Shown in pieces: positions 4,276-57,086 of a stretch of DNA of 64,000 bases. This DNA is from Cognatilysobacter segetis (lineage in GTDB: Bacteria; Pseudomonadota; Gammaproteobacteria; Xanthomonadales; Xanthomonadaceae), in the NCBI RefSeq assembly GCF_004359965.1, contig NZ_SMRQ01000002.1, positions 1-64,000 on the forward strand. The letters run 5' to 3'. The translations under genes were made by a program, and so were the position numbers. The notes beneath the pieces are model-generated. The model ran no database searches. It had not been told where the DNA came from and saw nothing but the letters and a program-made list of their open reading frames with translations. The first letter of the stretch is position 1. The number at the start of each line of letters is the position of its first letter.

Positions 4276-5961
4276 TCAGTGCGCGGGCGCCAGCGAGGCC
4301 GGCATCGACACCGGCACGCCGTTCGCATCGCAACCGCCGGCGCGGCATACGGTCGCGCGCAGCGTCGGCGCGGCCTGCAGCAGGATGTGGAAGATCGCGT
4401 TCTCCTCCAGCGAGCCGCGCACCGCCTCGCTGCCGGGGCCGCGCGCCCAGATGCCGACGTCGTCGCCGCCGTGCGTCTCGTTGGCCATCGGCACCAGCGC
4501 TTCCTGCAGGTAGGACGGATCGGTGGTGTCGACCTGCGTCAGGTCGGGGCGCCCGTTCCTCGCCGGCTGGAAGCCCCGCGCGGTGTGCAGGTGGCGCTTC
4601 GGGCCTTCGGGCTGCGTCCCGCTCGCGCCGGTGTAGCCGGGGCCGTTCGCGTAGTTCAGCGTCGTGTACGGGCGCTTGTTGGCGTCGAGCGCCAGCGCGC
4701 CGCCACCGCCGCCTTCGCCGCTGATGCCGCGGACCTTGCCGAGGATCGGGTTGCCGCGCTCGGGATAGCCGACGAACGTCATCGTGTGGGAGTGGTCGGC
4801 GGTCACCAGGATCAGCGTGTCGTCGGCCGACGTCGCCTCGACCGCCGCGCGCACCGCATCGCTCATCGCGACCGTTTCGCCCAGCGCGCGGAACGCGTTG
4901 CCCTCGTGGTGCGCGAGGTCGATGCGCCCGCCCTCGACGAGCAGCACGTAGCCGCCCGGATTTCGCGAGAGCCGCGCGATCGCCGCGCGCGTCATGGTGG
5001 CGATGTCCGGCTCGCCGGCGGCGTCGCGCGGACGGTCGTGCTCGTAGTTCATGTGGCTGGGCTCGAAGAGCGCCAGCAGAGGCGCATCGACCGGCGCCTG
5101 CTGCAGCTGCGCCGCGTTCCAGACGTAGGCGCCGCCGGGATGGCGCGTGCGCCACTCGGCGACGAGGTCGCGTCCGTCCTGCCGCAGCCCACGCTTGTCC
5201 GCGTACTCGGGGTCCTGCGCGGTGGCCGGCAGAAAATTGGTGCGGCCGCCGCCCATCAGCACCTTCATCCGTCCGGCGAGCGGCGACTCGACCAGCTGGC
5301 GCGCGATGTCGACGCAGCCCGCCGTGCGCGCCGCCTCCGGCAGGTCGGCATCCGATTCCCAGTTGCGATCGGCGATGTGGGTGAACGTCGCCGCGGGCGT
5401 GGCGTGGGTGACGCGCGTGGTGGTGACGATGCCGACGTCGAGGCCGGCGCGCGCCGCCAGTTCCCATAGCGTGGCCAGGGGGTGCGCGCGCCCCGCGCCG
5501 CAGTCGCCGCGCGGCGCTTCGGGGCCGACCGAGATCACGCCCATGCGGGTCTTCACCCCGGTCGCGATCGCGCTCATGGTCCCGGCGGAATCGGGCGTCT
5601 GCGAATCGGTGTTGTAGGTCTTGCTCAGCGCCGTGTACGGGAAGTCCTCCCAGCCGAGGCGGTTCTCCTCGCCGGGGCGGCCCTGGCGCTGGCCTTCGAG
5701 GATGCGCGCGGCCGCGACGGTCGTCAGGCTCATGCCGTCGCCGAGGAACACGATGACGTTCTTCGCGCGGCCGCCCATCGCGCCGCGTGCAGCGGCCTGC
5801 GCGGCACCGGCACGGAACCACCAGGCGCTCGACTCGCCACCCGGACGCTCGATCACGGGCACGTCGACGGCGAACGTCGTCGCCTTCGGGGGCGTCGTGG
5901 TGCAGGCCGCGCAGAGCAGGGCGGCGGCGAAGGCGAGTGCGGCGGGCGTGTATCGGGGCAT
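4276..5961 (-). CDS. Alkaline phosphatase, predicted lipoprotein
   Basis: This 561-residue metalloenzyme removes phosphate from monoesters outside the cytoplasm. The N terminus is a lipoprotein signal with lipobox LLCAAC, so the enzyme is probably anchored to a membrane facing the periplasm. PhoA-superfamily motifs appear in order: NVIVFLGDGMS (metal site), PDSAGTMSAIATGVKT with the nucleophilic serine of the Asp-Ser-Ala triad, EGGRIDLAHHEGNA, TADHSHTMTFVGY, and ETHGGDDVGIWARGP near the C terminus. The family is usually induced by phosphate starvation, but no clear Pho box was found in the 176 bases before the divergent symporter gene. Confidence 0.93.
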   Translation of the reverse strand: MPRYTPAALAFAAALLCAACTTTPPKATTFAVDVPVIERPGGESSAWWFRAGAAQAAARGAMGGRAKNVIVFLGDGMSLTTVAAARILEGQRQGRPGEENRLGWEDFPYTALSKTYNTDSQTPDSAGTMSAIATGVKTRMGVISVGPEAPRGDCGAGRAHPLATLWELAARAGLDVGIVTTTRVTHATPAATFTHIADRNWESDADLPEAARTAGCVDIARQLVESPLAGRMKVLMGGGRTNFLPATAQDPEYADKRGLRQDGRDLVAEWRTRHPGGAYVWNAAQLQQAPVDAPLLALFEPSHMNYEHDRPRDAAGEPDIATMTRAAIARLSRNPGGYVLLVEGGRIDLAHHEGNAFRALGETVAMSDAVRAAVEATSADDTLILVTADHSHTMTFVGYPERGNPILGKVRGISGEGGGGGALALDANKRPYTTLNYANGPGYTGASGTQPEGPKRHLHTARGFQPARNGRPDLTQVDTTDPSYLQEALVPMANETHGGDDVGIWARGPGSEAVRGSLEENAIFHILLQAAPTLRATVCRAGGCDANGVPVSMPASLAPAH

Positions 5962-6137
5962 GGTCGGGCGGAAACGGGGGGAACCGCCGATTATGCGGAG
6001 CGCCGCGTACGCGCCGAGCCCCGGCGCGGCGGGGTGTGCGGTGTGTCACGCCCGCGGGACGCTGCGACGCCACGCGCGTCGTCGTTCCGCCACGCGGCCT
6101 CCGCTATGGTGCGGTATCGACCCCGACCGGACCGCCC

Positions 6138-7466
6138 ATGTCCCTCGTCCAAGGCTGGCTGAAGATCCGTTTCTGGAAGCGCGTGCTCGCCGGCTTCGTG
6201 CTCGGCGCGCTCGCGGGCTGGGTGATGGGCCCGGCGGCGGCCACCTGGTTCGGGCCGCTCGGCGACCTCTACGTGCGGCTGATCAAGATGATCGCGGTGC
6301 CGCTGGTCTTCTTCGCGGTGGTCAACTCGGTCTCCGCGCTGCACGGCCAGAAGTCGATGGCCAGGCTCGGCGGGCGCACGTTCCTGTGGTTCGCGCTGAC
6401 CGCGGTCGTGGCCGTGTGCATCGGCCTCGGCGTCGGCACGCTGATGCAGCCCGGCGTCGGCGTCGCGCGGCTCGCCGTGGATCCGGACTACGCGCCTCGC
6501 TACGTGCCGAGCGTGGCCAACGTGCTGCTGTCGGTGGTGCCGGACAACGCGTTCGCCGCCATGACCGGCATCGGCGAAAAGAAGAACGCGGCGGGCGAGA
6601 TGGTGCTCGCCTTCGGCAAGGGCTCGATCCTGCCGGTGATCTTCTGGGCCGCGCTGCTGGGCTTCGCGATGGTCAAGCTCGGCGAGCGCGTGCCGCGCAT
6701 GCGCGAGCTGATGGGCGAGGGCCGCGACCTGATGGTGCAGGTCACGCGGTTCGTGCTCGAGATGACGCCGATCGGCACCTTCGGCCTGATCGCCGCGCTG
6801 GTGGGCGAGTTCGGCTTCTCCAAGCTGCTGCCGCTGGGCAACTTCGTGCTCGCGCTGTACATCGCCTGCGCGGCGCACATCGTGATCACCTACGGCGGGC
6901 TGCTGCTCGCGCACCGGCTCAATCCGCTGCGCTTCTTCAAGGGCGCGTTCCCGGCCATGCAGGTCGCATTCGTCAGCTCGTCGAGCTTCGCGGCGATGCC
7001 CGCGTCGCTGCGCTCGGCCACGCACAACCTCGGCGTCGACAAGGACTACGCGGCGTTCGCCGTGCCGCTCGGCGCGTCGATCAAGATGGATGGCTGCGGC
7101 GCAATCTATCCCGCGCTGTGCGCGGTCTTCATCGCGCAGTACACGGGCGTGCCGCTCACCGCCGACCAGTACTTCATCGTGCTGATCGCCTCGGTGCTCG
7201 GCAGCTTCGGCACCGCGGGCGTACCGGGCACGGCGGTGGTGATGGCGACCGTCGTGCTCAGCGCCGCGGGCCTGCCGCTGGAGGTGATCGGCTACCTGTA
7301 CGCGATCGATCGCGTGCTCGACATGATGCGCACGATGACCAACGTGACCGGCCAAGTGCTGGTGCCGGTGCTGGTCGCGCGCGAGACCGGACTGCTCGAC
7401 GTCGAGCGATACAACGCGGGCCTGACGGACGTCGGCCTGGCGCCCGACGAGGCCGAAGCGGCCTGA
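6138..7466 (+). CDS. Dicarboxylate/amino acid:cation symporter (DAACS family)
   Basis: A 442-residue inner-membrane transporter of the GltP/DctA type that imports dicarboxylates or glutamate/aspartate together with protons or sodium. Diagnostic pieces are the serine-rich reentrant loop SSSSFAAMPAS, the second hairpin GASIKMDGCGAIYPAL, and GTAGVPGTAVVM in place of the more common GIPGG stretch. The start at 6138 gives MSLVQGWLKIRFWKR and the expected length. The exact substrate cannot be decided from these motifs. It is divergent from the phosphatase and is followed 28 bases later by the thioesterase. Confidence 0.92.
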   Translation: MSLVQGWLKIRFWKRVLAGFVLGALAGWVMGPAAATWFGPLGDLYVRLIKMIAVPLVFFAVVNSVSALHGQKSMARLGGRTFLWFALTAVVAVCIGLGVGTLMQPGVGVARLAVDPDYAPRYVPSVANVLLSVVPDNAFAAMTGIGEKKNAAGEMVLAFGKGSILPVIFWAALLGFAMVKLGERVPRMRELMGEGRDLMVQVTRFVLEMTPIGTFGLIAALVGEFGFSKLLPLGNFVLALYIACAAHIVITYGGLLLAHRLNPLRFFKGAFPAMQVAFVSSSSFAAMPASLRSATHNLGVDKDYAAFAVPLGASIKMDGCGAIYPALCAVFIAQYTGVPLTADQYFIVLIASVLGSFGTAGVPGTAVVMATVVLSAAGLPLEVIGYLYAIDRVLDMMRTMTNVTGQVLVPVLVARETGLLDVERYNAGLTDVGLAPDEAEAA

Positions 7467-7494
7467 CCACCGGTCGCGTGGTACACCGACGCCC

Positions 7495-7983
7495 ATGAGC
7501 GATCGCGAACTGACCCTGCGTTTCCTCGCCCAGCCCACCGACGTCAACTACGGCGGCAAGGTGCACGGCGGCGCCGTGATGAAGTGGATCGACCAGGCCG
7601 GCTACGCGGCCGCGGTCGCCTGGAGCGGGCACTACTCGGTGACCGTGGCGGTCGGCGGCATCCGCTTCCTGGCCCCGATCCGGATTTCCGACCTCGTCAC
7701 CCTGCAGGCCAAGCTCGTGCATACCGGCACGACCAGCATGCATTTCGCGGTCGAGGTGCGCGCGCGGGATCCGAAGGACGCCGCGAGCGGCGATCGGTTG
7801 TGCACGCACTGCGTCATCGTGTTCGTCGCGCTCGACGCACCGGAGGGCAAGCCCGTGCCGGTGCCCGCGTGGACGCCGACCGACGAGGACGACCGCCGCC
7901 TGGCCGAATACGCGCAGCAGGTGATGGCGCTGAGCCGCGCGATCGAGCCGATGATCGAAGGGCTGCCGTCCAGCGCGGCCTGA
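7495..7983 (+). CDS. Acyl-CoA thioesterase (hotdog fold)
   Basis: A 162-residue single-hotdog protein of the YciA/BACH group, which hydrolyses acyl-CoA to free acid and CoA in the cytoplasm. The family signature TDVNYGGKVHGGAVMKWIDQ is near residues 15-34, with the helix that packs into the hotdog, followed by SVTVAVGGIRFLAPI. It lies 28 bases after the symporter gene on the same strand, so it may be its operon partner. Chain-length preference cannot be told from the sequence. Confidence 0.9.
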   Translation: MSDRELTLRFLAQPTDVNYGGKVHGGAVMKWIDQAGYAAAVAWSGHYSVTVAVGGIRFLAPIRISDLVTLQAKLVHTGTTSMHFAVEVRARDPKDAASGDRLCTHCVIVFVALDAPEGKPVPVPAWTPTDEDDRRLAEYAQQVMALSRAIEPMIEGLPSSAA

Positions 7984-35241: not shown

Positions 35242-35400
35242 ATGCAGCGCAGTCGCAACCGGGGTGCATACCTCGCCATCGGCATGGGTGTCGGGGTCGG
35301 GATCGGCGCCGCGATGCATCGCATCGCACTCGGCGTCGCGCTAGGGGTCGTGTACGGACTCGTGCTCGCGGCACTCGCGGCACGCCGGGAGCCGCGCTGA
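35242..35400 (+). CDS. Small glycine-zipper membrane protein
   Basis: A 52-residue protein, mostly hydrophobic, with the glycine-rich run AIGMGVGVGIGAAM and a second helix ALGVALGVVYGLVLAALAA, so it probably spans the membrane twice. Comparable tiny proteins occur in other genomes as unnamed glycine-zipper proteins; I do not know a function. Its stop overlaps the folP start (TGATG), so it is likely co-translated with folP. The ftsH terminator sits directly before it, so its own promoter must overlap that hairpin or read-through is used. Confidence 0.7.
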   Translation: MQRSRNRGAYLAIGMGVGVGIGAAMHRIALGVALGVVYGLVLAALAARREPR

Positions 35401-36299
35401 TGTTCGACGTCGCGCCCGTGCTGGACTGCGGCGGCCGCCGGCTGGTGCTCGATGCGCCGCGCGTCATGGGCATCGTCAACGTCACGCCGGATTCGTTTTC
35501 CGATGGCGGCGTCCATTTCGACGTCGATGACGCGGTCGCGCACGGCCTGAAGCTGGTGGCCGAGGGCGCGGACCTGCTCGACGTCGGCGGCGAATCCACG
35601 CGCCCCGGCGCAGACGAGGTATCCGTCGACGACGAACTCGCGCGCGTCGTCCCGGTGATCGAGCGCCTCGCGCGCGAAACCGCGGTGCCCATCAGCATCG
35701 ACACCTGCAAGCCCGAGGTGATGCGAGCGGCGGTGGCCGCCGGTGCCGGCATGATCAACGACGTCTACGCCCTTCGACGCGACGGCGCGCTCGACGCGGC
35801 GGCATCGCTGGGAGTGCCGGTCGTGCTGATGCACATGTTGGGCGAGCCGCGATCGATGCAGGACGACCCGCGCTACGACGACGTGGTCGGCGAGGTGCAC
35901 CGTTTCCTCGCGGAGCGCATTTTCTCCGCCGAGATGGCCGGCATCGACAAGAAGCGCATCGTGGTCGACCCGGGTTTCGGCTTCGGCAAGACCCGCGAGC
36001 ACAACCTGCAGCTGCTCGCGCGGTTCGAGCGGTTCACCGACCTGGGCGTGCCGGCGCTCGCGGGCCTGTCGCGCAAGCGCACGATCGGCGACCTCACCGG
36101 TCGCAGCGTGCCGGCCGAGCGCGTCGCGGGTTCGGTCGCCGCGCACCTGATCGCCGTGCAGCGGGGCGCGTCGATCGTGCGCGTGCACGACGTGGCCGCC
36201 ACCGTCGACGCGCTGAAGGTATGGGCTGCGGTCGCCGCGCAGCCGGTGCCGCGCGCGGGTGCCTCCGCGCCCGCGATCCGCTGGCCCGACGACGACTGA
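35400..36299 (+). CDS. folP: Dihydropteroate synthase
   Basis: A 299-residue enzyme that joins p-aminobenzoate to dihydropterin pyrophosphate in folate synthesis, the target of sulfonamides. Motifs: MGIVNVTPDSFSDGG, LDVGGESTRPGADEV, the pterin-binding DTCKPEVMR and VVDPGFGFGKTREHN, and the C-terminal AGLSRKRTIG. It overlaps the small membrane protein by one base. Order ftsH-folP is common; glmM, often next, is missing here and an unrelated permease follows. The last about 18 residues (GASAPAIRWPDDD) are variable. Confidence 0.95.
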   Translation: MFDVAPVLDCGGRRLVLDAPRVMGIVNVTPDSFSDGGVHFDVDDAVAHGLKLVAEGADLLDVGGESTRPGADEVSVDDELARVVPVIERLARETAVPISIDTCKPEVMRAAVAAGAGMINDVYALRRDGALDAAASLGVPVVLMHMLGEPRSMQDDPRYDDVVGEVHRFLAERIFSAEMAGIDKKRIVVDPGFGFGKTREHNLQLLARFERFTDLGVPALAGLSRKRTIGDLTGRSVPAERVAGSVAAHLIAVQRGASIVRVHDVAATVDALKVWAAVAAQPVPRAGASAPAIRWPDDD

Positions 36300-36314
36300 G
36301 CGACGCGTCGGCGT

Positions 36315-36361
36315 TTACCCACATGCGTTGTGGATAACCGGTGGGGCACGACTGTGGATAA
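36315..36361. promoter_or_regulatory. Cluster of three DnaA boxes
   Basis: The 9-mer TGTGGATAA, the perfect complement of the DnaA box TTATCCACA, occurs at 36329-36337 and 36353-36361. A third box on the plus strand, TTACCCACA at 36315-36323, has one mismatch. All three fall within 47 bases of an intergenic region, so DnaA binding is plausible. It could be a DnaA titration or control site. No replication-origin genes are in the window. Confidence 0.6.
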
Positions 36362-36484
36362 CGATCGCGCGCCCGCGCGGCGGCAGCGCTTCGGGCCGGG
36401 TTGGCGAAGTTTTGGCCAGCCGTGCGTCGCATCCGGCCGCCGCTTCGGCCAAACTCCGCCGATCGCCCACGCCCGAGGCTGCGC

Positions 36485-37906
36485 ATGAGTTCCTGGCTCC
36501 GTCGCAAGGACATCGACCGGATCACCGTCCACGAGGAGGGCCGGCGGCTGGCGCGCACGCTCGGTTGGCCGCATCTGGTAGCGCTCGGCATCGGCGCGAT
36601 CGTCGGCACCGGCATCTACACGCTGGTGGGCGTCGCCGCGAACCTCGCGGGCCCGGCGGTGCTGCTCTCGTTCCTGGTCGCCGGCGTGGTCTGCGCCTGC
36701 GCGGCGCTGGCCTATGCCGAGATGTCGACGATGATGCCGGCGGCCGGCAGCGCCTACACCTACAGCTACGCGGTGCTGGGCGAGGGCATCGCCTGGATCG
36801 TGGGCTGGAGCCTGATCCTCGAATACTCGCTGGTGGTGAGCGCGGTCGCGGTGGGCTGGTCGGGGTCGGCCGTCGAGTTCCTGCACGGCCTCGGCGTGGC
36901 GCTGCCGCCGTCGCTGGTCGCCGGTCCGCACGCGGGCGGCCTCGTCAACCTGCCGGCGGTGCTGATCGTGTTCGCCGTCGCGGGCCTGCTGATGCTGGGT
37001 ACGCGCGAGAGCGCCACGCTCAATGCCGCGCTGGTGGTGATCAAGGTGCTGGCGCTCGGCGTGTTCGTCGCGATCGCGCTGCCGCGGTTCGACACCGCGA
37101 ACCTGCAGCCGTTCATGCCCTACGGCTTCACCGAGTCGACGGGACCGGATGGGGTCAAGCGCGGCGTGATGGCGGCGGCGGCGATCATCTTCTTCGCGTT
37201 CTACGGTTTCGATGCCATCTCCACGGCGGCGGAAGAGGCCAAGAACCCGGGCCGCGACCTGTCGATCGGCATCGTCGGCTCGATGGTGGGTTGCACGCTG
37301 ATCTACGTGCTCGTGGCGCTGGCGGCGGTCGGCGCGATGCATTACACGGCGTTCGCGCAGAGCCCGGCGCCGCTCGCGCTGATCATGCGCGAGCTGGGGC
37401 AGGGCGCGGCGGCCAAGATCGTGGCCGGCGCCGCCGTCGTCGCGCTGCCGACCGTGCTGCTCGCGTTCTTCTATGGCCAGAGCCGCGTGTTCTTCGTGAT
37501 GTCGCGCGACGGCCTGCTGCCGCGCTCGCTGTCCAAGGTGAATACGCGCACGGGCACGCCGGTCGCGATCACGCTGTTCACCGCGGTGATCGTCGCCGCG
37601 CTCGCCGGCGTGGCACGGCTCGACGAGATCGCCGCACTCGCCAATGCCGGCACGCTCGCGGCCTTCGTCGCGGTGGCCGCCTGCCTGCTCGTGCTGCGTC
37701 GCCGCGATCCGGCGCGCCCGCGCGTGTTCCGTACGCCGGCCGCGTGGGTGGTCGGGCCGGTCGCGATCGTCGGCTGCGTCTACCTGTTCGTGAGCCTGCC
37801 GCACCGCACGCAGCTCTGGTTCCTGGTGTGGAACGCGGTCGGCGTGGTCGTGTACCTCGCCTATGCGCGACGCAACAGCCAGCTCGCCAAGACCGGTCAT
37901 GCCTGA
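36485..37906 (+). CDS. APC-family amino-acid permease
   Basis: A 473-residue inner-membrane transporter with about 12 helices. The first helix carries the substrate and sodium-site pattern GIGAIVGTGIYTLVG. Another family stretch is FFAFYGFDAISTAAEEAKNP, the conserved helix-6 region of cationic amino-acid transporters, and a helix-3 block AGSAYTYSYAVLGEG. This resembles the bacterial cationic amino-acid (CAT-like) branch; the exact substrate is unknown. It stands in a 186-base gap after folP that holds the DnaA boxes, and 21 bases before miaA. Confidence 0.9.
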   Translation: MSSWLRRKDIDRITVHEEGRRLARTLGWPHLVALGIGAIVGTGIYTLVGVAANLAGPAVLLSFLVAGVVCACAALAYAEMSTMMPAAGSAYTYSYAVLGEGIAWIVGWSLILEYSLVVSAVAVGWSGSAVEFLHGLGVALPPSLVAGPHAGGLVNLPAVLIVFAVAGLLMLGTRESATLNAALVVIKVLALGVFVAIALPRFDTANLQPFMPYGFTESTGPDGVKRGVMAAAAIIFFAFYGFDAISTAAEEAKNPGRDLSIGIVGSMVGCTLIYVLVALAAVGAMHYTAFAQSPAPLALIMRELGQGAAAKIVAGAAVVALPTVLLAFFYGQSRVFFVMSRDGLLPRSLSKVNTRTGTPVAITLFTAVIVAALAGVARLDEIAALANAGTLAAFVAVAACLLVLRRRDPARPRVFRTPAAWVVGPVAIVGCVYLFVSLPHRTQLWFLVWNAVGVVVYLAYARRNSQLAKTGHA

Positions 37907-37927: not shown

Positions 37928-38881
37928 ATGAGCGCGGATCCGCGCCCGCTCGCGATCGCGCTGATGGGCCCGACCGCGTCGGGCAAGACGGCGCTGGCGG
38001 TGGACTGGGCGACGCGCTTCGGTGGCGAGGTGGTGAGCGTCGACTCGGCGCTGGTCTACCGCGGGCTGGACATCGGCGCCGCGAAGCCGACGCCCGCGGA
38101 GCGCGTCGGCATCGCGCACCACCTCATCGACGTCCGTGAGCCCTGGCAGCCGTATTCGGCGGCCGAGTTCGCCGCCGACGCGCTCGACGCCGTGCACGAC
38201 ATCCTGGCGCGCGGGCGGCTGCCCATCCTCGCCGGCGGCACGGGCCTGTATTTCCACGCGCTGCTGCACGGCCTCGCGCCGATGCCGGAGGCGGATGCCG
38301 CCGTGCGCGACGCGATCGCCGCCGAGGCCGGCGCGCGCGGCTGGGCGGCGCTGCATGCCGACCTCGCGGGCATCGATCCGGAGGCGGCCGCGCGCATCCA
38401 CGCGACCGACGCGCAACGCATCCAGCGGGCGCTGGAGGTCTGGCGCCTCAGCGGCCGCACGATCACCGCCTGGCGCCGCGAGCCGGTCGCGCGACGCTTC
38501 CCCTGTCGCGTGCTGAAGCTCGTCGTCGCGCCACGGGCCCGCGAGGTGCTGCACGAGCGCATCGCGCTGCGCTTCGACGCGATGCTCGATGGCGGGTTCC
38601 TCGACGAGGTACGGCGCCTGCGTGCGCAGCCCCAGCTGGCGTCACATCCGCGCCCGCTCGACCTGCCGGCACTGCGCGCGGTGGGCTACCGGCAGGCATG
38701 GGAGCACCTGGACGGCGCGTACGACCTCGCGGACCTGCGCGAGCGCGGCATCCAGGCGACACGCCAGCTCGCGAAGCGGCAACTGACGTGGCTGCGCGGG
38801 GAGCTGGACGCGATCTGGGCGGACCCGGCCACCGAGCGGGCGCGCCTGGAAGCACGGCTCGCCGCGTTTCTCGCGCACTGA
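37928..38881 (+). CDS. miaA: tRNA dimethylallyltransferase
   Basis: A 317-residue enzyme that adds a dimethylallyl group to A37 of tRNAs reading U-starting codons. The P-loop is [16 protein letters not shown], followed by [18 protein letters not shown], the [10 protein letters not shown] and [14 protein letters not shown] blocks, and [16 protein letters not shown]. The tRNA-binding end contains [16 protein letters not shown]. It starts the standard miaA-hfq-hflX-hflK-hflC order. The prenyl donor comes from the MEP pathway partly encoded at 25.6-26.8 kb. Confidence 0.96.
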
Positions 38882-50353: not shown

Positions 50354-51806
50354 CGCGCTCGTCGCAGCTCGCCACGTCCGCGACGGGCGACGGCGCCTGG
50401 GCCGGCACTTCGGCCGGCACTGCGACTTCGGTATGCGCGGCAGGCAGCATGCGCGCTTTCCGCCAGCCGCCCAGCATGTAGTACGCGGCCGAACCGAGCA
50501 TCGCCACGACGGCGCTCACCGGGAAGCTCCACCAGATCGCATCGGCGCCGATGCGTGCCTGCAGCAGCGAAGCGAACGGCACGCGCACGCCCCACAGCGC
50601 GATGCCGAGGATGATCAGCGGCGGGATCACCGCGCCCGTCGCGCGCACGACGCCCGAGAGTACGAACGTGACGCCGAAGAACAGGAACGAGGTGACGACG
50701 ATCGGGGTGAGGTGGACCGCGATGGCCAGCGCCGGGCTCGCGTCCGGCAGGAACAGCGACAGCGTGGTGCGGTCGAACAGGATCAGCGGCACGATGAGCG
50801 CGCCGGTCATGAGGAAGTTGAACAGCACGCCGGCCTTGGCGGTCGAATGCACGCGGTCCCATCGCTGCGCGCCGACGTTCTGCGCGGCCATCGACGAGCA
50901 GGCCGCGCCGATCGCCATCGCCGGCATCTGCACGTAGGTCCACAGCTGCAGCGACGCGCCGTACGCGGCCGTGGTGTCGACCCCGTGCTTGTTGACCATC
51001 GTGATCATGGCGAGCATCGCGAACGAGATCAGCATCATCTGCAGTCCGATCGGAATGCCCTTGACGATCAGCGACTTCAGCACCGCGAGGTTCGGGCGGT
51101 AGAGGTGACGCTCGTGGCGGGTGATCCACAGCCGGTGCTTGCGATGGCGCAGCCACAGCAGCAGCGCCGCGAGACTGACCGCGTTGGCGATCAACGTGGC
51201 GGTGGCGGCGCCGGCGATGCCCATGCGCGGGAACGGGCCGAGGCCGAACAGCAGCACCGGGTTGAAGCCGATGTCGAGCACCACCGTGAGCAGCAGGAAC
51301 AGGAACGGCGTGCGTGTGTCGCCCGAGCCGCGCAGGATCGCGGTGATGAAGGTGAAGGCATACAGGAACGGCAGCGCCAGGAAGATGATCCGCAGGTAGG
51401 CCTCGGCGAAGGGCAGGGCCGCCGCGGGCGTGTCCATCCAGGCCAGCAGGTGGCGCGAGAACGGAAGGCCGAACGCCGCGATCACGATCGACAGGCCGAT
51501 GAAGAACGTCGCGCTGGTGCCGATCACGCAGCGCGCGCGGTCGAGGTCGTCGCGACCGATCGCCTGAGCGACGAGGATGCTCGCGGCCATGCCGATGCCG
51601 AACACCGCGCCCAGCAGCAGGAACATCACGTTGTTGGCATTGGCGGTCGCCGTAAGCGCCTGTTCGCCGAGGAAGCGGCCGACCCAGACCGCGTTGACCG
51701 AGCCGTTGAGCGACTGCAGCACGTTGCCGCCGAGGATCGGCAGCGCGAAGCGGAACAGCGTGGGCGCGATGGCGCCCTGCGTGAGGTCGTGTCGGGTTCC
51801 GGCCAT
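50331..51806 (-). CDS. MATE-family multidrug efflux transporter
   Basis: A 491-residue inner-membrane transporter with 12 helices in two homologous halves (QGAIAPTLFRFALPILGGNV and PNLAVLKSLIVKGIPIGLQM). This family exports cationic drugs with sodium or protons. The start at 51806 follows GGAGG at the right spacing; an ATG seven codons earlier is weaker. It overlaps the 3' end of the convergent UvrA2 gene by 23 bases. The pairing of a UvrA-like protein and a drug exporter is compatible with a shared resistance role, though they are convergent. Confidence 0.9.
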   Translation of the reverse strand: MAGTRHDLTQGAIAPTLFRFALPILGGNVLQSLNGSVNAVWVGRFLGEQALTATANANNVMFLLLGAVFGIGMAASILVAQAIGRDDLDRARCVIGTSATFFIGLSIVIAAFGLPFSRHLLAWMDTPAAALPFAEAYLRIIFLALPFLYAFTFITAILRGSGDTRTPFLFLLLTVVLDIGFNPVLLFGLGPFPRMGIAGAATATLIANAVSLAALLLWLRHRKHRLWITRHERHLYRPNLAVLKSLIVKGIPIGLQMMLISFAMLAMITMVNKHGVDTTAAYGASLQLWTYVQMPAMAIGAACSSMAAQNVGAQRWDRVHSTAKAGVLFNFLMTGALIVPLILFDRTTLSLFLPDASPALAIAVHLTPIVVTSFLFFGVTFVLSGVVRATGAVIPPLIILGIALWGVRVPFASLLQARIGADAIWWSFPVSAVVAMLGSAAYYMLGGWRKARMLPAAHTEVAVPAEVPAQAPSPVADVASCDERATGVGGP

Positions 51807-56870: not shown

Positions 56871-56910
56871 GGCGGGCGTCTTGGCACGGCGGGATGCCGC
56901 GGGAAGGTGC

Positions 56911-57086
56911 CCCTCTGTCCTTTTGCCTGAGAGTTTGGAAGCGCGGGGGAGGATGCGCTTCTTGCCCCTTCGGCGCCGGCTCGCGGCCGGTCTCTCCAGA
57001 GTGTGTGCAGCCGGCGGTGTGGGGGCCTGAGCGATTCCGGGCGATTGCGCCTTCGGCAGCGGGTCGGGCCCGCTTCTCCCACCGGG
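56911..57086 (-). promoter_or_regulatory. Tandem glycine riboswitch of gcvP
   Basis: Two aptamers lie in the leader. The first (about 57018-57086, minus strand) contains GGTGGGAGAAGCGGG, TGCCGAAGGCGCAATCG and CGCTCAGGCCCCCACACC. The second (about 56911-57002) contains CTCTGGAGAGACC, GCGCCGAAGGGGCAAG and AACTCTCAGGCAAAAGGACA. These are the standard glycine-aptamer core blocks. A further hairpin with GGCAC and GTGCC arms (56883-56911) lies between the second aptamer and the start codon and may be the expression platform. Glycine binding should turn gcvP on. Confidence 0.95.

Follow-up and report, generated by a model that had tools for sequence, protein, structure and literature searches.

A conserved DnaA-box element between folP and an amino-acid permease gene of Cognatilysobacter segetis is probably a DARS-type (DnaA-reactivating) site, with its biochemical function assigned by analogy with Escherichia coli. 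The element was found in the window, a stretch of 64,000 nucleotides of contig NZ_SMRQ01000002.1 from the source assembly (G000; 2.94 Mb, 133 contigs, 99.65% complete). It is rigid and conserved, its boxes I and II are arranged as in a DARS core, and it occurs in two separable types, one at folP and one at priA. Both types were present in the source assembly and in most genomes of the genus.

The whole DARS-like element spans 109 bp (36315–36423, plus strand). Box I (36315–36323, plus strand) reads TTACCCACA and carries one mismatch; the same box was TTATCGACA in four sister genomes and TTACCCACA in one. Box II (36329–36337, minus strand) is a perfect TTATCCACA that faces box I head to head, with 5 bp between the two. 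Box III (36353–36361, minus strand), likewise a perfect TTATCCACA, begins at +38 after a 15-bp gap, 12 bp further out than in the DARS of E. coli. Canonically box III lies at +26 (here 36341–36349, minus strand), as E. coli DARS1 and DARS2 and the priA copies show; in the window copy this position is degenerate and reads GTGGGGCAC on the plus strand. An AT-centred palindrome without strand, TTGGCGAAGTTTTGGCCA (36401–36418), follows at +86 from box I in a nearly fixed phase and matches the Fis consensus with one mismatch at 36403–36417. With the sequence profile R1 the element scored 62 bits, the window copy being itself among the 28 sequences from which R1 was built.

The two perfect boxes and the single-mismatch box lay exactly where the original prediction had placed them, and its view that their spacing is tight for chance was borne out. 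Of 1000 order-1 Markov windows of 64 kb and the same composition, none contained three or more boxes with at most one mismatch inside 47 bp; at least two such boxes occurred in 3 of them and two perfect ones in 0. The count of four sites with at most one mismatch in 64 kb is unremarkable by itself, having been reached by 7 of 100 shuffles, and the clustering is the striking part. The nearest further site of this kind, at 51122, is 15 kb off and is the sole other one in the window. A genome-wide count of the 9-mer, which the prediction had proposed as a check, gave six perfect TTATCCACA in the assembly, two of them in the window cluster, and two for the reversed-pattern control; clusters are infrequent in this genome. 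Based on the Markov windows and on only six perfect boxes per 2.94 Mb, chance clustering was ruled out. The other four perfect boxes comprised a head-to-head pair upstream of priA, one box upstream of mraZ and one inside aceE, the latter two genes being named by reading their ORFs. Across eight genomes of the genus, 47 perfect boxes were counted, and the reversed pattern occurred 27 times. Going by the places listed, 12 of the perfect boxes belonged to folP pairs and 14 to priA head-to-head pairs, and the remaining 21 therefore do not exceed the reversed control. The single box upstream of mraZ (G000:C21:28239–28247; L008:3740) lies at the start of the division and cell-wall cluster and was kept, within a longer conserved stretch, in five of the seven other genus genomes (loci L221, L223, L224, L230 and L231).

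The gene order in the window is rlmE-ftsH-folP-[element]-APC permease-miaA, with the element intergenic between folP and the permease. The recurrent neighbour is folP (35400–36299, plus strand), coding for dihydropteroate synthase. The APC-family amino-acid permease downstream (36485–37906, plus strand) is inconsistently linked to the element, and is followed by miaA (37928–38881, plus strand) and by ORFs that we take to be hfq, hflX and hflK. The best named relatives at folP were Luteimonas, Lysobacter and other Lysobacteraceae. Among 80 folP loci with flanks of up to 4 kb, miaA was found in 62 and the permease in 5. The element adjoins folP even in loci that continue straight to miaA or to other genes, and in many loci its strand relative to folP is opposite. 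It thus tracks folP and not the permease. The interval 36200–36600 yielded neither a sigma-70-like promoter nor a terminator. Coupling to the permease/miaA transcript, as the original prediction had suggested, was rejected on the rarity of the permease, the occurrence of the element on both strands and the lack of a promoter-like site in that interval. A terminator or RNA element was also rejected, with no terminator-like site and an RNA fold z of −0.65. The sole Rfam match in the window at gathering thresholds was a glycine riboswitch (RF00504, 68.7 bits) at 56905–57009 on the minus strand, 20 kb away.

An origin of replication would combine adjacent dnaA or other replication genes with an AT-rich unwinding element; the site does not show this combination, being flanked by rlmE-ftsH-folP and permease-miaA. 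The GC content over 34–38 kb of the window is 68.5–72%. In sister genomes, dnaA lies on other contigs or far from the folP site. It was present in seven of the eight genus genomes and not found in the source assembly (0 of 1); given the completeness of that assembly, the contig with the origin was probably lost. The original prediction was upheld in that the cluster of DnaA boxes is genuine, chromosomal and away from oriC; a part in the control of replication initiation is plausible.

Conservation among relatives, also proposed as a check, was found for the boxes adjoining folP. The exact pair TGTGGATAA-N15-TGTGGATAA was present in six of eight genus genomes (control 0), and all six copies adjoin folP. 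In the seventh genome, G001, two R1-type elements closely follow folP on its downstream side; the eighth, G005, is 81% complete and showed no folP element. Both boxes were kept in L. xinjiangensis (L011), although the permease was not found within the 4-kb flank. The folP-adjoining element recurs in several genera. Profile R1, which holds sequence without structure, was built from 28 folP-type elements of the host family only. At E up to 1e-3 it had between 1 and 13 matches in each of 122 genomes out of the 149 of the family; R1 also scores the priA copies, so these counts mix both types. Box pairs alone score 12–15 bits with R1. Of the best R1 loci fetched, 29 of 30 adjoin folP, and the R1 sites of the closed genomes G121 and G092 (L245 and L246) are not beside folP, priA or miaA. 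R1 over the whole folP loci gave matches in the flanks of only 19 of 80, against 12 of 79 by a strict three-box search over 600 bp downstream of folP at up to 3 of 27 mismatches (best reversed control 9; one locus was dropped for its short flank). None of the named Xanthomonas, Stenotrophomonas and Pseudoxanthomonas folP loci was among the 19. Tandem copies at 114–119 bp were found in L050, with four in a row, and in L128 and L129. An unusually long DnaA-box array was seen in Lysobacter sp. Root690 (L020), where ten R1-type matches follow folP at 4982–7651, mostly about 300 bp apart. In Lysobacter psychrotolerans (L050), two short ORFs at 4900–5600, toxin-antitoxin-like by eye, lie between folP and the four tandem elements.

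The second copy in the source assembly has perfect boxes at 35873 and 35887 of contig C12, head to head with a 5-bp spacer, upstream of priA. Its box III, TGTGAATGG, follows at N3, which gives the exact DARS core spacing of 5 and 3. With up to two mismatches allowed, the pair TTATCCACA-N5-TGTGGATAA was present in 243 of the 247 family genomes, against one for the reversed control. With exact boxes and a free spacer of 0–30, it was found in 104 of 119 family genomes (control 0), and among the matches listed the spacer was always exactly 5. Of the family pairs fetched, 28 of 30 adjoin priA, the other two lying at contig edges and sharing the other neighbour; a further 11 of 11 (L232–L242) also adjoin priA. 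Among 31 aligned priA-type elements, box III begins at N3 with TGTG in 27 and with GGTG in four. In the class, taken as Gammaproteobacteria from the placement of the family, 253 of 369 genomes held the pair at up to one mismatch (reversed control 1 of 369). The 30 class loci fetched were the best matches and no random draw, and at least two of them (L168 and L169) look like chance pairs; 10 of the 30 adjoin priA and one is next to the ribosomal protein L31 gene. Flanking ORFs were annotated with Pfam at 10 of the 20 class loci that do not adjoin priA, and no neighbour was shared by all of these; an alpha/beta hydrolase was seen at both L158 and L160, and DctM at both L173 and L174. In a draw across the phylum, the pair was present in 73 of 160 genomes, 30 of 40 in its own class and 43 of 120 outside, the latter concentrated in few families. 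The proteobacterial families f193, f197 and f201 held up to seven 5-bp head-to-head pairs per genome, and none was found in many other families outside the class.

Both types extend to an AT-centred palindrome with a consensus near TGGCGAAWWTTNRCCA, about +84 to +87 from box I, which some copies match poorly. Fis and IHF consensus matches, with one mismatch allowed, were scanned by position against block shuffles. Orientation in the priA-type and class-wide sets was chosen by box III only, and the folP-type set was restricted to 28 elements with at most two mismatches to the three-box pattern and no box at +26, looser ones being dropped. Among 36 priA-type elements, Fis matches peaked at +87 (13) and +86 (7; 20 distinct, largest shuffled count 5), and IHF matches at +121, +122 and +120 (19, 11 and 4; 34 distinct, largest shuffled count 2). 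The 30 class-wide elements showed 16 Fis matches at +86, 10 of them exact (shuffled 4 and 1), and 7, 5 and 4 IHF matches at +120, +119 and +121 (shuffled 3). The 28 folP-type elements showed 19 Fis matches at +87, 8 of them exact (largest shuffled counts 4 and 2), and no IHF peak, with an IHF consensus at +120 to +122 in 0 of 28. No IHF consensus within two mismatches was found in 156 bp of the window copy; one-mismatch Fis matches are common and occurred at four places in the same 156 bp. The priA copy of the source assembly has an IHF match, and a Fis match within one mismatch is absent at +86/87. The palindrome pattern TGGNNANNNNTNNCCA, one base shorter than this palindrome requires, gave no positional peak, unlike the Fis consensus. 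Fis is encoded in the source assembly (NF001659; 104.8 bits against a cut-off of 99); its gene follows prmA and precedes purH, both named by reading. From these sequence matches, Fis is the putative binder of the palindrome at +86.

For the chromosomal position, 19 family genomes with long contigs were picked, 12 of them single-contig; distances in G105 are approximate. In all 12 single-contig genomes the pair beside priA lies 3.6–12.1% of the genome length from dnaA. Among the matches listed, R1 elements besides the priA copy lie 26–44% from dnaA in eight of the 12, and the other four had no R1 match. In five of these eight genomes the two sites fall on opposite arms, and in three they share an arm. 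Measured in the closed sister genome G003, the distance from dnaA amounts to 28% of the genome for the folP site and 8.4% for the priA site; by arithmetic from coordinates, E. coli DARS1 and DARS2 are about 33% and 21% from oriC. As expected of a DARS, the window site is thus non-coding, being intergenic, and away from oriC, with the distance taken from G003.

Other explanations for the element were weighed against the DARS reading. E. coli sequences for DARS1 and DARS2 were taken from MG1655, at what we take to be the places of these sites and of the datA region. A scan for boxes within one mismatch of TTWTNCACA, with gaps up to 30, gave convergent pairs separated by 3 bp in the datA region, 26 bp in oriC and exactly 5 bp in DARS1 and DARS2, as in the window. 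A site that sequesters DnaA, or one that acts like datA and reduces the amount of free or ATP-bound DnaA, is unlikely. Binding of DnaA is to be expected at any cluster of strong boxes, and arrays of R1-type elements at folP, such as the ten matches of L020, would bind more, but titration needs no strict geometry, no palindrome in fixed phase and no profile match to DARS1, and the datA region lacks a 5-bp head-to-head pair. The datA-like layout implied by the original prediction was rejected on this spacing; DnaA may nevertheless bind here, and some titration could follow.

A DnaA operator controlling a flanking gene, the permease or miaA in the window and priA at the other site, would agree with the intergenic position and with the location of the priA copy just upstream of priA in 28 of 30 and 11 of 11 further family loci. 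The gene downstream of the folP element varies, however, and is the permease in 5 loci out of 80; the element is found on both strands with no promoter-like site seen, and class-wide only 10 of 30 loci fetched adjoin priA. This explanation is quite improbable for the element as a whole, though priA itself may be regulated in this way. The sequence TTAYCCACA-N5-TGTGGATAA is also an inverted repeat, and tandem copies occur in some genomes, as they might for the operator of another palindrome-binding regulator or for a terminator or REP-like repeat that merely resembles DnaA boxes. Such an origin would account neither for the third box and the DARS geometry nor for the IHF and Fis-like sites, and the missing terminator-like site and the RNA fold argue against a terminator or repeat; it is very improbable.

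Under the DARS reading, ADP-bound DnaA would assemble on the site, which would serve as a chromosomal DNA cofactor. DnaA would lose its ADP there, depart as apo-DnaA and rebind ATP, and ATP-DnaA competent for initiation would be restored for the next round. By analogy with E. coli work (PMC5742627, PMC8682772, PMC4245941), ADP release may result from contact between the AAA+ domains of DnaA-ADP on boxes I and II, box III may support the DnaA oligomer, and a protein bound at +86, possibly Fis, may stimulate the reaction. The folP copy would then be an accessory, IHF-independent, DARS1-like site and the priA copy an IHF-controlled, DARS2-like site. A broader proposal appears somewhat favoured: a DARS module of DnaA core, Fis-like site at +86 and IHF site at about +120 would be distributed across the Gammaproteobacteria and, in Lysobacteraceae, anchored to a place upstream of priA. 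The same family would also have evolved a second class, which sits mostly at folP, lacks an IHF site, has its box III shifted by roughly one helical turn and is amplified in tandem, with ten profile matches at a single locus and as many as 13 in one genome. This class would act as an array whose copy number tunes the recharging of DnaA.

Experimental knowledge of DARS sites comes from E. coli, and the founding paper is reportedly that of Fujimitsu in 2009. Our results suggest that the DnaA-recharging system is more widely spread and more variable than the E. coli examples show. Some spread of DARS was already known: the features of DARS2 are described as conserved in species related or proximal to E. 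coli (PMC4245941, PMC5742627), and a figure legend includes Vibrio cholerae and Shewanella (PMC8682772); PMC4585315 and PMC12371093 were consulted as well. Among titles in the open-access literature, no description was found of DARS in Lysobacter, Luteimonas and relatives, in Xanthomonas, in Pseudomonas or beside priA. A compact, fixed-phase version in hundreds of genomes would let natural variation separate the roles of core, Fis and IHF, and the tandem arrays would amount to a natural dosage experiment for initiator recharging. The site coordinates are supplied for cell-cycle work in Lysobacter, Luteimonas and their relatives.

The DARS1 core is TTATCCACT-N5-TGTGGATAA-N3-TGTGTATTA and the DARS2 core TTATTCACC-N5-TGTGGATAG-N3-TGTGAAGAA. 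The three boxes are described as spaced alike at the two sites, with box I opposite to II and III, and the head-to-head contact of boxes I and II as a prominent DARS feature (PMC5742627). In the window copy, boxes I and II likewise stand head to head 5 bp apart, and box III is oriented like box II. The spacing to box III is 15 instead of 3, and the window copy was therefore called DARS-like, whereas the priA copies qualify as DARS by core spacing. The more distant box III, the mismatch in box I and the lack of an IHF site argue against DARS for the window copy. Like the window site, datA is a non-coding DnaA-box cluster away from oriC; its convergent pair is 3 bp apart in another layout, and it is described with an IHF site between boxes and an opposite effect on ATP-DnaA (PMC5742627), whereas the window has no IHF consensus. 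DARS2, located at rppH-mutH, requires Fis and IHF (PMC4245941), and the window copy differs from the DARS2 type in having no IHF site. The priA copies have the same box I/II/III core as DARS2 and are followed by the palindrome (+86) and an IHF match (+120), whereas in DARS2 the IHF consensus matches precede GGGTTGGCGAAAGATCAACCA (TTGGCG), a motif similar to the palindrome that stands at +184 and not at +86. In 21 kb of E. coli covering the DARS1, DARS2, datA, oriC and fis regions, R1 did not find DARS2 and gave one match, to DARS1, which is weak (17.7 bits, E 7e-5, rough calibration) and spans the core as far as TTGGCG at +84. DARS1, at bioD-uvrB, differs from the window copy in its box III gap (3 against 15), in its neighbouring genes and in the weak right half of its palindrome. 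Both sites are far from oriC, with boxes I and II head to head across N5, box III on the strand of box II and the TTGGCG motif at +84 in DARS1 corresponding to +86 in the window.
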